Positions 40,849 to 55,675 of a stretch of DNA of 64,000 bases are shown here, one piece after another. The notes under the pieces are model-generated. The model saw only the letters and a program-made list of their open reading frames with translations. It was not told the DNA's origin and did no database searches. The stretch is from the NCBI RefSeq assembly GCF_017948245.1, contig NZ_CP072867.1:455705-519704 (forward strand). The letters run 5' to 3'. A program made the translations under genes and the position numbers. This stretch comes from Rhizobium sp. NLR16a (GTDB lineage: Bacteria; Pseudomonadota; Alphaproteobacteria; Rhizobiales; Rhizobiaceae). How positions within the stretch are numbered: position 1 is the stretch's first letter; every line of letters starts with the position of its first letter.

Positions 40849-40935
40849 CACGTTTGTCCGGGACTTGGCTGAGCAGACGTGAAGGGATCGTAAGGGGGCG
40901 CTTTCGGCGCGGCCGCACATTCCTCGGCCAAAACG

Positions 40936-40970
40936 AAAAAAGCCTGCCGCGGGAGGAGGTGCGGCAGGCT
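40936..40970 (-). terminator. Anti-SD hairpin 4 of the array, doubling as intrinsic terminator
   Basis: Minus strand: AGCCTGCCGC pairs perfectly with GCGGCAGGCT around the loop ACCTCCTCCC, and TTTTTT (plus 40936-40941, sharing one base pair with the stem) follows. It ends the array, so the last RNA carries the anti-SD loop in its terminator. Confidence 0.82.
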
Positions 40971-40984
40971 TTCGATAAAAACCG

Positions 40985-41015
40985 AACGACAGCTGGGAGG
41001 AGGAGTGCTGCCGTT
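40985..41015 (-). repeat. Anti-SD hairpin 3 of the array
   Basis: Minus strand: AACGGCAGC pairs with GCTGTCGTT (9 bp, one G-U). The loop contains CTCCTCCTCCC. Confidence 0.75.
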
Positions 41016-41022
41016 CCCGCAA

Positions 41023-41048
41023 GCGACCCTGGGAGGAGGATGGGGCGC
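41023..41048 (-). repeat. Anti-SD hairpin 2 of the array
   Basis: Minus strand: GCG and CCC pair with GGG and CGC across one bulged T. The loop contains TCCTCCTCCC. It is the weakest stem of the four. Confidence 0.65.
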
Positions 41049-41056
41049 CTGCATGG

Positions 41057-41089
41057 TCGAAGGATGCGGGAGGAGGTGCACCGCTTCGA
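41057..41089 (-). repeat. Anti-SD hairpin 1 of the array
   Basis: Minus strand: TCGAAG plus GGTGC pair with GCATC plus CTTCGA, with one bulged C. The loop ACCTCCTCCC is fully exposed. Confidence 0.75.
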
Positions 41090-41202
41090 TGAAATAATCA
41101 TACTTATTTTCTGCTCAGATGATAGGCATTTCTTTGCAGGGCAGCTATGCGTTATGCGAAAAGCGGGCGGCTCGCCATCTGACGGGCAAGCCCAAAAAGC
41201 AA

Positions 41203-41230
41203 AGCGCCCGCTCGGGAGGAAGCAGGCGCT
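41203..41230 (-). repeat. Variant anti-SD hairpin next to the DUF1127 stop
   Basis: Minus strand: AGCGCCTG pairs with CGGGCGCT (8 bp, one G-U) around a loop with TTCCTCCC, a shortened form of the array motif. It lies 35 bases past the DUF1127 stop and is followed by a T-rich stretch (TTTGCTTTTT), so it may terminate or be processed from the DUF1127 message. Confidence 0.65.
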
Positions 41231-41264
41231 GGCCAAATGTCGAAGGTGGTGGTCTGTCTGGCCG

Positions 41265-41411
41265 TTAGCGGGCGATGGCCGCACGGGCGATGGTGCGGAT
41301 TTCGCCGCGGCCGATGCCGAGGTCGTCCAGTTCGCGCGTCGACATACGGCCCAGTTCAGCGACCGTCTGACGGTACTTGCGCCAGTTGTTGAAAGAGCGT
41401 GCTACGTTCAT
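41265..41411 (-). CDS. DUF1127 small protein (CcaF1-like), 48 aa
   Basis: The 48-residue frame reads MNVARSFNNWRKYRQTVAEL, then GRMSTRELDDLGIGRGEI, then RTIARAAIAR. The central block L..MS.REL.DLGI.R.EI is the DUF1127 signature. AAAGGGGATCATC precedes the ATG. DUF1127 proteins of Alphaproteobacteria are Arg-rich; CcaF1 of Rhodobacter binds RNA and affects maturation of the downstream CcsR RNAs, and Agrobacterium members influence phosphate and small-RNA metabolism. The same gene order is found here. Confidence 0.88.
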   Translation of the reverse strand: MNVARSFNNWRKYRQTVAELGRMSTRELDDLGIGRGEIRTIARAAIAR

Positions 41412-41482
41412 GATGATCCCCTTTCCGTGGGCTTTCGAAGCCTAGCTGCCAGTCCTTGGCGCTTCGGTTGCTTCGATGAGTT

Positions 41483-41539
41483 CTATATAATACGGGACCC
41501 CCGGTTGTTGCAGCGCCAATGCATCACTGCACCTATGCG
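41483..41539 (-). promoter_or_regulatory. DUF1127 promoter with LysR-type operator candidate
   Basis: On the minus strand a GTATTATATAG -10 region (plus 41482-41492) gives an expected start near 41475 and a leader of about 65 bases. Upstream, GCAT-N10-ATGC (41521-41538) forms a LysR-type inverted repeat centred near -55. In Brucella and Agrobacterium the LysR activator VtlR controls several DUF1127 genes, so a VtlR-like regulator is a reasonable but unproven candidate. The -35 element is not clear. Confidence 0.5.
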
Positions 41540-41574
41540 ATAACTGCATGGGTTCTGATGGGCCGCGGCCGATC

Positions 41575-42555
41575 TCAGGCTTTGAAGCGATCGAAGGCCG
41601 TCAGCCGGACGAGCGGCGGATCGGCCTCCTTCCACCGATAGATTTCCGAACGCAGATAGGAAAGCTCGTCGCCGAGATCGTCCTCGCCGACTTCGATCCA
41701 CCAGGATTTCAGGCGGCCATCGCTTCCATCAGACCAGCGGTAGCCCCTTGCCTTCAGGTGGTCCTTCATCTCGAACGGGCTGTGTTCGGCAAAGATGCGG
41801 ACGCGGCAGCGTTGGCTGGCGCGGTACAGCTCGGCGAAGGGGCTTTCACCGTCGCCCTGCTGTCGATCCAGGATCTCCAGGAGTGCGTGGCAGTCGTCCA
41901 CCGCGCGGTGGCCTTCATGGAAATAGCCGGCCTGGCCGACGAGGTAACCGAGCTTGGTGCCCTCGAAGCCGCGGGCGCTCCAGTCGATCTCCGAAACCGA
42001 GCACGCCCAGGCCTTGCCGGTGAAGATGGGTGAGAAGGCCTCGCAGAACGGCCGGTCGAACCCGGCATTATGGGCAATGATGAGGTCCGCCGGTTCGATC
42101 AGTGCACTCAGCGACGGCATGTCGATCATCTGTCCTTCGACCATGGCATCGGTAATGCCGGTCAGCCTGGTGATGTCGGGCGGGATCGGCCTGGACGGCT
42201 GCTGCAGACCGCCATAGATGCCGACCACATCGCCGACCGCGCCGTCATCGTTGAAGGTGAAGGCGACGGCGCCGATTTCGATGATTTCATCGCTGCGGTA
42301 GTTGAGGCCCGTCGTCTCGGTATCGAGGATGACGCCGAGCCGCGAAAACTGCGGCTGTCTCGCTGCCGCGACCGGCCGGGCGGCAAGTTTCCTCAGGATG
42401 CGATAATTGCCGCTCTCCTCGAGCGCGCGCGCCATGTCTTCATCGCAGCGGGCCGCCGGCGGTGACGGCCGCCGGCGCGCCGGGCCGCGTGCCTCGGCCA
42501 TTGCGGGCGATGGCTTGGCAAACATGTCGAGTTGCGAATCTCTGTGCACGCTCAT
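41575..42555 (-). CDS. DEDDh 3'-5' exonuclease (DnaQ-like) with extra C-terminal domain
   Basis: A 326-residue protein. A low-complexity head (~1-70) precedes the exonuclease domain: ILDTETTGLNYRSDEIIEIG (DxE, Exo I), AHNAGFDRPF (Exo II) and HRAVDDCHALLEIL (HxxxxD, Exo III). The last ~80 residues contain FEMKDHLKARGYRWSD and LKSWWIEVGEDDL, a small domain often attached to such nucleases. Role inferred: trimming of DNA ends or repair, separate from the replicative DNA polymerase epsilon subunit. Confidence 0.88.
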   Translation of the reverse strand: MSVHRDSQLDMFAKPSPAMAEARGPARRRPSPPAARCDEDMARALEESGNYRILRKLAARPVAAARQPQFSRLGVILDTETTGLNYRSDEIIEIGAVAFTFNDDGAVGDVVGIYGGLQQPSRPIPPDITRLTGITDAMVEGQMIDMPSLSALIEPADLIIAHNAGFDRPFCEAFSPIFTGKAWACSVSEIDWSARGFEGTKLGYLVGQAGYFHEGHRAVDDCHALLEILDRQQGDGESPFAELYRASQRCRVRIFAEHSPFEMKDHLKARGYRWSDGSDGRLKSWWIEVGEDDLGDELSYLRSEIYRWKEADPPLVRLTAFDRFKA

Positions 42556-53056: not shown

Positions 53057-53281
53057 CGGCGAAATTCCCCATTCGATTGTTCCGGACGTATCTCTGTACG
53101 TCTCCCTGAACGTGTCTCCCTGACGGTCTCGAGCGCGCTCGGATGATTTTGGCGATCCGCGCTCCCGACGGATTCTCCGAGCCTGAACTCTTGATGCATA
53201 GTGAAGATATTTTCTTTTTAGTCAATATGACTTTACTTTCCATAGGCATTTTGTAACCTGTATGGGCGTATGCTGAAGGGC
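53057..53281. promoter_or_regulatory. Divergent promoter region between APC permease and tdm
   Basis: About 225 bases, AT-rich at 53195-53260 (for example ATATTTTCTTTTTAGTC). It presumably carries both promoters. No operator can be named with confidence. Confidence 0.4.
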
Positions 53282-55675
53282 ATGCCGATCCCCCATGAGG
53301 GTAGAATGCGAGAACTTCATCCTGTCATGCCGGGCCCCCGAACGATCGTTCCGAGCCTCGTCCATTACCCCGGTATTCCCGCCCTGCCGGCGGGCAGTGA
53401 ACGCTACCGGGCAAAGGGTGGCGGATCGGTCGTCGTGCGCGTGGAGCCGGGCGACCGCGTGAGCGTCATCGACAGCGAAGGCGGGCAGATTTGTGAGCTC
53501 TCCTTCCTTGACGAAAAAGGGCGCTTCCAGGCAGCCGGTCTCGGAACGGCATTCAGCAATTCAGCCGAGGGCTTGAAGGCCATTCTTCAGGCGGAGGATG
53601 AGAGTGCTGCCCGCACGCGCGCGGCACTTCAGCGGCGCGGCGCCGATCTCGCAGCGGCCGGCGCGCTCCGCGTCTTCGGGGCAGGATCGACGCCGGGCAG
53701 CCGGGCGGAGTTCACGATTGCCGTGAAGGGTCTGCTGATCGTTGCGGCACCCGCCGGCGCCATGTCGCCGGAGGCGCAGGACACGGCGACGCCGATCGAG
53801 ATCCGGATCAAGCGCAGCCTGCTGGTCCGCGACTATGCCTCCGCCCTGCCGGAGCCGGCGGCCGATCCGATCGAGGATATCCGCATCCGGGCGGCGAGCG
53901 CAGCCGCCTATTTCGTGCGCGCCGGCGAATTCATTCAGATCATCGACGTCTATGGGCGCCAGTGCACCGATTTCCAGGCCTTTGCCGCCCGCAAGGTCGA
54001 CAAGGGCCTCGATCTCGCGCTCGATTCGACCGTCACCCGCACGCTGCTCGGCCGCAGCTATCCCACGCCCGGCCTGCCGTCCAAGGCTTTCGACCGCGAC
54101 TTCGAGCCGCTGGTCGAGATCGTCCAGGATACGGTCGGCCGCCACGACGCTTTCGCGACTGCCTGCAATTCACGCTATTACGACGACATGGGTTATCCCG
54201 GCCACGTCAACTGCACGGACAATTTCAACGCGGCGCTGGCGCCTTATGGCATTGCCGGGCGCAAGGGCTGGGAAGCGCTGAACTATTTCTACAACACCAA
54301 TATCGACCACAACAACCAGCTCTATCTCGACGAGCCCTGGTCGCGTCCCGGCGATTACGTGCTGATGCGTGCGCTGACGGATCTCGTCTGCGTCTCATCG
54401 TCCTGCCCTGACGATATCGATGCGGCGAACGGCTGGGATCCGACGGATATCCACGTCCGCACCTTTTCCGGAAAAGAGAAATTCTCACGAGCGGTAGCCT
54501 ATCGCATGACCCCAGATGCCGAAGCCGAACTGACGCGCGAAACCGCCTTCCATCCCCGCCTTTCGGCGTTGACGCGAGACTATACGGAATATCGCGGCTA
54601 CTGGTTGCCGAACCGCTTCTCGTCCGAAGGACCGGTCGAGGAATACTGGGCCTGCCGCGAGCGCGCCGCCGTCATCGATCTCTCGCCCTTGCGGAAGTTC
54701 GAAGTGACGGGTCCGGACGCCGAGGAACTGCTGCAATACTGCCTGACGCGCGACGTGCGAAAACTCTCGACCGGCCAGGTCGTCTATTCCGCGATGTGCT
54801 ACGAAAACGGCGGCATGATCGACGACGGCACCCTCTTCAGACTCGGCGACAAGAACTTCCGCTGGATCGGCGGCGATGATTTCAGCGGCATATGGCTGCG
54901 TCAGCAGGCCGAGAAGAAGGGTTTCAAGGCCTGGGTTCGCTCATCGACCGATCAGTTGCACAATATCGCGCTGCAAGGGCCGCGGAGCCGCGACATCCTG
55001 AAGGAGATTATCTGGACGGCGCCGCGCCAGCCCGCGATCGGCGAGCTCGAATGGTTCCGCTTCACCGTCGGCCGCATCGGCGGCTTCGAGGGGGCGCCGG
55101 TCGTGATCTCGCGCACGGGCTATACCGGCGAGCTCGGCTACGAGATCTTCTGTCATCCGAAGGATGCGCTGGGGGTGTTCGATGCCGTCTGGGAGGCAGG
55201 CCAACCGCACGGGCTGAAGCCGATGGGGCTGGAGGCACTCGACATGGTCCGCATCGAGGCGGGCCTGATCTTTGCCCACCACGAATTCACCGACCAGACG
55301 GATCCGTTCGAGGCCGGCATCGGCTTTACCGTGCCGCTGAAATCCAAACAGGACGATTTCATCGGCCGCGAGGCGCTGATCCGGCGCAAGGAACATCCGC
55401 GCCATCTGCTCGTCGGCCTTGATATCCAGGCGAACGAGGCGGTCGGCCATGGCGATTGCGTCCATATCGGCCGGGCCCAGATCGGCGTCGTCACCAGCGC
55501 CACGCGCTCGCCTGTTCTCGGCAAGACGATCGCGCTCGCCCGCATAGACGTGATGCATGCGAGCCCGGGCACCGAGGTCGAGATCGGCAAGCTCGACGGC
55601 CACCAGAAGCGTTTGCCGGCGACGATCGTGCCGCTTTCGCATTACGATCCGCAGAAGACGCGCCCGCGATCGTAA
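53282..55675 (+). CDS. tdm: TMAO demethylase (DUF1989 + GcvT fusion)
   Basis: A ~797-residue fusion. The N-terminal half (~1-400) is a DUF1989-type domain with Cys at about 228 (GRQCTDFQ), 295 (ACNSRYY), 311 (NCTDNF) and 370/375 (VCVSSSCPDD), candidates for zinc binding. The C-terminal half (~410-790) is a GcvT tetrahydrofolate domain (SRTGYTGELGYEIF, GLEALDMVRIEAGL). Tdm of Methylocella silvestris has the same order and length. It splits TMAO to dimethylamine and formaldehyde, and the GcvT half can pass the carbon to tetrahydrofolate. ATG 53282 follows GAAGGGC; 53270 and 53306 are alternatives. The nearby tmm and dmm genes support the name. Confidence 0.82.
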   Translation: MPIPHEGRMRELHPVMPGPRTIVPSLVHYPGIPALPAGSERYRAKGGGSVVVRVEPGDRVSVIDSEGGQICELSFLDEKGRFQAAGLGTAFSNSAEGLKAILQAEDESAARTRAALQRRGADLAAAGALRVFGAGSTPGSRAEFTIAVKGLLIVAAPAGAMSPEAQDTATPIEIRIKRSLLVRDYASALPEPAADPIEDIRIRAASAAAYFVRAGEFIQIIDVYGRQCTDFQAFAARKVDKGLDLALDSTVTRTLLGRSYPTPGLPSKAFDRDFEPLVEIVQDTVGRHDAFATACNSRYYDDMGYPGHVNCTDNFNAALAPYGIAGRKGWEALNYFYNTNIDHNNQLYLDEPWSRPGDYVLMRALTDLVCVSSSCPDDIDAANGWDPTDIHVRTFSGKEKFSRAVAYRMTPDAEAELTRETAFHPRLSALTRDYTEYRGYWLPNRFSSEGPVEEYWACRERAAVIDLSPLRKFEVTGPDAEELLQYCLTRDVRKLSTGQVVYSAMCYENGGMIDDGTLFRLGDKNFRWIGGDDFSGIWLRQQAEKKGFKAWVRSSTDQLHNIALQGPRSRDILKEIIWTAPRQPAIGELEWFRFTVGRIGGFEGAPVVISRTGYTGELGYEIFCHPKDALGVFDAVWEAGQPHGLKPMGLEALDMVRIEAGLIFAHHEFTDQTDPFEAGIGFTVPLKSKQDDFIGREALIRRKEHPRHLLVGLDIQANEAVGHGDCVHIGRAQIGVVTSATRSPVLGKTIALARIDVMHASPGTEVEIGKLDGHQKRLPATIVPLSHYDPQKTRPRS

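Follow-up and report, generated by a model that had tools for sequence, protein, structure and literature searches.

The hairpin array analyzed here belongs to a known family of RNAs with CCUCCUCCC loops ('cuckoo', NfeR1, SmelA099), and it most likely represents an LsrB-activated small RNA (sRNA) of ~155 nt that would block Shine-Dalgarno sites. We assign a probability of roughly 70% to a model in which two units are both raised by LsrB and the loops of the sRNA pair with Shine-Dalgarno sites, lowering translation. Unit 1 would make a short DUF1127 protein and stop at its own terminator, and unit 2 would make the sRNA, with four hairpins, CCUCCUCCC unpaired in each, and an end at hairpin 4. 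Both promoters would bear a site for LsrB/VtlR, a LysR-type, redox-linked regulator, ~60 nt before the start, so that active LsrB should raise DUF1127 and the sRNA jointly. The sRNA loops would then pair with the Shine-Dalgarno sequences of many messages, whose translation would fall, as reported for NfeR1. If this is right, a single redox regulator would simultaneously raise a small protein and several anti-Shine-Dalgarno RNAs of broad range.

Throughout, the window is the whole 64-kb stretch of DNA that was analyzed, located at the end of a contig of 519,704 bp in a 6.58-Mb genome. The family, its loop, the copy number, the stress link and the association with DUF1127 are already in print. 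The split two-promoter layout was not found described in the literature passages searched, a set to which the original cuckoo, CcaF1 and CcsR papers do not belong.

Anatomy and family of the array

The motif CCTCCTCCC is present in four exact copies in the window, all on the minus strand; the shuffled window holds 0.59 copies on average, and four or more were found in 0 of 100 shuffles. Each of four hairpins carries CCUCCUCCC in its loop: hairpin 1 (41057..41089, loop motif at 41068-41076, z = -3.67), hairpin 2 (41019..41052, motif at 41031-41039, z = -3.02), hairpin 3 (40984..41016, motif at 40995-41003, z = -4.69) and hairpin 4 (40936..40972, motif at 40951-40959, z = -5.75). Together they form the predicted anti-Shine-Dalgarno sRNA at 40936..41090 (minus strand), both ends of which are putative. 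The stem of hairpin 4 (40972-40938) is perfectly paired and followed by six T, in agreement with its earlier description as a perfect terminator. A shorter hairpin at 41230-41203 is separated from the array by a spacer of ~110 nt with a conserved, promoter-like block, and upstream of both lies a gene for a DUF1127 protein of 48 aa (41265..41411, minus strand; PF06568, 61 bits against a cut-off of 23.3). All five hairpins beat 200 of 200 of their own shuffles (z from -3.02 to -5.75). The motif count, the folds and the PF06568 match thus agree with the earlier note, which had placed four CCTCCTCCC hairpins and a shorter variant in a row behind a DUF1127 gene.

The Rfam covariance model ar14 (RF02344) matches 40935-41058 over model positions 1-123 of 123 at 108.5 bits, above the gathering cut-off of 58.8. 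Since this model spans three hairpins only, hairpin 1 falls outside it. The proposal of a cuckoo/CcsR-type anti-Shine-Dalgarno RNA, with DUF1127 first and the array second, is borne out. The cuckoo family was reportedly described by Reinkensmeier and Giegerich in 2015 as two to four adjacent hairpins, each with a CCUCCUCCC loop; the window has four. SmelA099 and its kin are reported to have adjacent hairpins with a common loop and variable stems, in two-, three- and four-hairpin forms (PMC3927594). The array resembles them in having four adjacent hairpins, the same loop and variable stems, and no structural difference from them was seen. With NfeR1, the founding ar14 RNA, it shares the whole model, matched by its last three hairpins, the CCUCCUCCC loops and an LsrB-type box upstream at a matching distance; it differs in having four hairpins rather than three and a DUF1127 gene directly upstream. 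The link of CCUCCUCCC RNAs to DUF1127 genes has been published as the "CIN1 locus" (PMC10253847). In Sinorhizobium meliloti plasmid records (H94-H97) the match is confined to the array, at 81-82% identity, and leaves out DUF1127; the array can thus exist by itself. A phage origin was rejected, as the 661-base locus had no match in 50,697 phage records.

Two LsrB/VtlR-type boxes and a terminator-like hairpin

We examined 80 loci, the best of at least 276 confirmed relatives of the DUF1127 protein. On the same strand, 280-620 nt downstream of the gene start, two or more loop motifs ([CT][CT]TCCTCCC) were found in 63 of the 80 and four or more in 49; two motifs on the opposite strand within 1,500 nt were found in none of the 80. 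Because the relatives share descent, these locus counts are not independent.

A terminator-like hairpin lies just 3' of DUF1127 in 60 of 64 loci (the window and the 63 relatives with arrays); in one of them, L098, the match is weak and at a different place. The home-made rule behind this count asks for a stem of 6 or more pairs with a T-rich stretch after it, just behind DUF1127; among the controls it picked up 56 of 1280 dinucleotide shuffles and 18 of 756 flank blocks. With the stem raised to 8 or more pairs, 56 of the 64 loci still qualify, against 6 of the 1280 shuffles and 6 of the 756 flank blocks. A similar scan of the window alone (40900-41600) gave 1 terminator against a shuffle mean of 0.7, which is within chance, and the case for a DUF1127 terminator is therefore made from the relatives. 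Its recurrence among them indicates that the 'shorter variant' of the earlier note, which does exist and folds beyond its shuffles, is not a member of the array and probably serves as the terminator of the DUF1127 unit (41193..41230, minus strand, loop CCUCCC). TCCTCCC is found inside this hairpin in 9 of the 64 loci, the window included; the putative DUF1127 terminator of one Rhizobium lineage thus carries an anti-Shine-Dalgarno-like loop.

The VtlR box has the consensus GCAT-N3-TG-N3-T (PMC7486931), and information on the LsrB site also comes from work on NfeR1 (PMC10746234). In the window this box lies near both presumed promoters and fits exactly at each. The copy upstream of DUF1127, GCATAGGTGCAGT (41526..41538, minus strand), is at -127 of the start codon and overlaps TGCA-N6-GCAT at 41548-41535; the copy upstream of the array is GCATAGCTGCCCT (41138..41150, minus strand). 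A -10-like element, TATTATATA, and the presumed DUF1127 transcript start (the A of ATCGAA, 41477) occupy 41477..41492, and the array has a -10-like TATGAT at 41097..41102, with the sRNA presumed to start at 41090, 60 nt from the box (all on the minus strand). Both presumed starts thus have a TAT-rich hexamer at the usual distance. Over 40900-41600, a sigma-70 scan gave a single site, which is on the plus strand, and no minus-strand promoter. Work on NfeR1 placed its LsrB site at -72 to -57 (PMC10746234), which roughly agrees with the box-to-start spacing predicted for the window.

Among the 63 relatives, the exact box precedes DUF1127 in 50, the array in 53 and both in 40; it is absent before DUF1127 in 13 and before the array in 10. 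Controls with the reversed sequence gave 0 and 0, and 22 of 2236 flank blocks had a box. The spacing is nearly fixed: with the window included, 50 of 54 array boxes lie 74 or 75 nt before the first loop motif, and in promoters where both elements were found, box and ATCGAA-like motif are 61 nt apart in front of DUF1127 (48 of 48) and 60-61 nt apart in front of the array (49 of 51). These spacing counts kept 48 of 51 and 51 of 54 boxes, leaving aside box loci without an ATCGAA-like motif in reach and two distant array boxes. The box is also carried by 8 of the 17 DUF1127 loci without an array and hence marks DUF1127 promoters as such. The idea that the two promoter regions are products of a duplication was dropped: aligned with each other and compared with mononucleotide shuffles, the two regions scored above z = 3 in just 22 of 64 loci, with a median z of 1.95.

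A LysR-type ORF of 303 aa adjoins trxB in the same genome (L133), the position reported for lsrB in Rhizobiales, and is a candidate for LsrB, the name given to VtlR outside Brucella (PMC11975290); an lsrB-specific model was absent among the families listed for this ORF (25 of 55). VtlR is reported to activate DUF1127 genes or their orthologues (PMC12595884, PMC7486931). The window resembles these genes of Brucella and Agrobacterium in that its short DUF1127 gene is preceded by the same box, and differs in that the literature passages on them make no mention of an anti-Shine-Dalgarno array behind the gene.

One operon or two units

In Rhodobacter sphaeroides, ccaF1-CcsR1-4 forms one transcript from an RpoHI/RpoHII promoter that is cut by RNase E (PMC10253847). 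The earlier note had matched the window to this locus. The gene order stands, in that tandem anti-Shine-Dalgarno RNAs come after a short DUF1127 gene in both. The operon layout does not: where Rhodobacter has a single transcript, the window has, as judged from sequence, a terminator-like hairpin (41230-41203) and a second promoter-like block between gene and array. One could still suppose that a transcript from the DUF1127 promoter is cut by RNase E with the DUF1127 protein assisting. The co-transcription and processing reported for the same gene order (PMC10253847) favor this, and read-through past the hairpin is conceivable. The recurrence of that hairpin in nearly all of the Rhizobiaceae loci and of a second box, at fixed spacing, before most of their arrays point the other way, and we regard a single operon as improbable here. 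The matching boxes and the terminator-like hairpin make both the signal behind the array and the joint or separate synthesis of protein and RNA directly testable.

We also looked for the locus beyond these relatives. An ar14 match above the cut-off was found in 25 of 25 same-genus genomes searched, the source genome included, and among the matches listed an ar14 match lies behind a same-strand DUF1127 relative in 23 of the 25, the exceptions being G001 and G016; the match of G003, which sits at a contig end, does not reach the cut-off. In same-genus ar14 loci (L103-L126) the box is at -75 or -76 of the first loop in 16 of 24, and in the other 8 it is absent from the 150 nt before the first loop or there is no loop there. 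In an order-wide sample, the exact motif pair at the spacing of the window occurs in 68 of 297 genomes, and the reversed pattern occurs once each in 12.

Outside the family we fetched 33 stretches from the listed matches, which were hand-picked and some of which come from one genome. In 16 of them, from three families, a DUF1127 gene lies 23-128 nt before the array (17 by script; L146 was removed because its translated frame is unlike DUF1127). In none of these 16 loci was a terminator found between DUF1127 and the array, and 9 of the 16 gaps are at most 32 nt, too short for one, which counts in favor of the single-operon reading. A box between DUF1127 and the array was found in one of the 16 (L155), and an exact box upstream of DUF1127 in 5. 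The remaining stretches held no convincing DUF1127 beside exact loops, in searches whose queries were Rhizobiaceae proteins and which may miss distant genes. This pattern, drawn without a tree, suggests that the close-packed layout is general and that the split layout is confined to Rhizobiaceae. We give even odds to a history in which the Rhizobiaceae locus was split from a close-packed, 3'-UTR-type layout into two units with LsrB promoters and in which the DUF1127 terminator of one lineage gained an anti-Shine-Dalgarno-like loop. If the split is real, protein and anti-Shine-Dalgarno RNA would be co-induced by redox signals, yet separately adjustable.

Two further arrangements were observed. 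Three loci of another family of the order (L156, L158, L164) have nine anti-Shine-Dalgarno motifs each, starting 31-32 nt behind DUF1127. A further locus (L162, G031:C130:30200-33300) has four DUF1127 genes in a row and no exact CCTCCTCCC-type loop; ar14-like matches (31.7 to 45.6 bits, below the cut-off) start near the 3' end of three of these genes. With DUF1127 genes and sub-cut-off ar14 matches and no exact loops, L162 was left out of the spacing count.

Stem covariation, candidate targets and genome context

The window and 48 of the 63 array loci were aligned by sequence alone; the other 15 do not have exactly four regularly spaced motifs or are identical. The consensus fold has 38 pairs, 97.7% of cells are paired and 20 of the 38 pairs show changes on both sides. 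This level of covariation was reached by 0 of 500 shuffles and 0 of 6 slid versions, with the reservations that the fold was predicted on the same alignment, which favors it in the slide test, and that the aligned sequences are related. The view that the stems differ yet pair well is therefore sustained, and stems that fail to covary in related rhizobia, which the earlier note had named as grounds for giving it up, were not what we found. Hairpins 2 and 3 hold 16 of the 20 two-sided pairs (7 of 7 in hairpin 2, 9 of 10 in hairpin 3); two-sided changes affect 3 of 8 pairs in hairpin 1 and 1 of 13 in hairpin 4. Stems that vary and stay paired are as in cuckoo/SmelA099, with hairpin 4 as the exception. 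Its stem (40938-40972, minus strand) is nearly invariant over the 49 loci, and 8 of its 13 pairs never vary, which is beyond what a terminator needs.

The loop CCUCCUCCC resembles the 3' end of 16S rRNA. Genome-wide, the pattern GGAGGAGG-N2-12-ATG has 74 sites and its reversed counterpart 10; one of the 74 is the array antisense, some overlap and not every ATG is a gene start. NfeR1 is reported to be activated by LsrB, to be repressed by NtrC and to silence the mRNAs of ntrBC and of two transporters, with redundancy among its three loops (PMC10746234), and CcsR RNAs are reported to target the mRNA of the regulator flhR (PMC8307010). Alternatively, rather than acting on chosen messages, the loops could serve as a decoy that imitates the 3' end of 16S rRNA and holds a ribosomal or RNA-binding factor, the DUF1127 protein being a candidate binder. 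That the anti-Shine-Dalgarno loop is kept while the stems of hairpins 2 and 3 drift would fit such a role, as would a hairpin 4 that is more fixed than pairing requires. DUF1127 proteins are reported to bind RNA in Rhodobacter and to target the PhoR kinase in Agrobacterium (PMC12501420). The reported silencing of specific mRNAs through the loops of NfeR1, a member of the same family (PMC10746234), speaks against a decoy, which we consider unlikely. A last reading, in which C-rich hairpins lined up by chance or the array is a series of spare terminators, functionless as RNA, agrees with the terminator shape of hairpin 4 and of the shorter hairpin and is already contradicted by the motif shuffles, the Rfam match, the covariation and the arrays in 63 of 80 relatives, which leaves it next to no probability.

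We return to the setting of the two proposed units. The earlier note had also found it notable that the array lies next to what it called a C1-amine replicon, and CcsR RNAs are reported to modulate C1 metabolism (PMC10253847). This link is weak. A trimethylamine N-oxide demethylase gene (53270-55675, plus strand; NF053776, 1274.5 bits, cut-off 1100), which may have prompted the remark, is ~12 kb away and nothing was found that ties it to the array, so the link was set aside. Directly beside the locus lie genes for an exonuclease, for KduI and for a short-chain dehydrogenase that is kduD in R. etli. The DNA of the locus is ~90-94% identical to that of bean-nodulating Rhizobium (R. esperanzae, R. 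etli, R. phaseoli and relatives), and plasmid p42e of R. etli CFN42 has the same order of exonuclease, DUF1127, array stretch, kduI, kduD and GntR-type regulator. The passages retrieved from transcript studies of R. etli (PMC2881028, PMC3188799) make no mention of the locus, and a term search of PMC3738593 for it gave no occurrence.

Five ar14 loci, spread over four contigs, and ten DUF1127 matches above the cut-off were found in the genome. A search with the DUF1127 protein of the window gave three matches in this genome, itself included; the other two follow a different ar14 locus at distances of 444 and 891 nt. The box precedes the first loop in three of the five ar14 loci, namely the window and the paralogues L001 and L002, where it is 76 nt before that loop; in L003 and L005 it is absent from the 150 nt before the first loop or there is no loop there. 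In L003 (G000:C1:2073831-2076950) a three-hairpin ar14 array is followed by two short DUF1127 genes. A TGCTTCCTCCCGAGCA hairpin lies 3' of the stop codon of the first of these, followed by a separate terminator-like hairpin, and the gene after the two is one that we take, from the start of its protein, to be trmFO.
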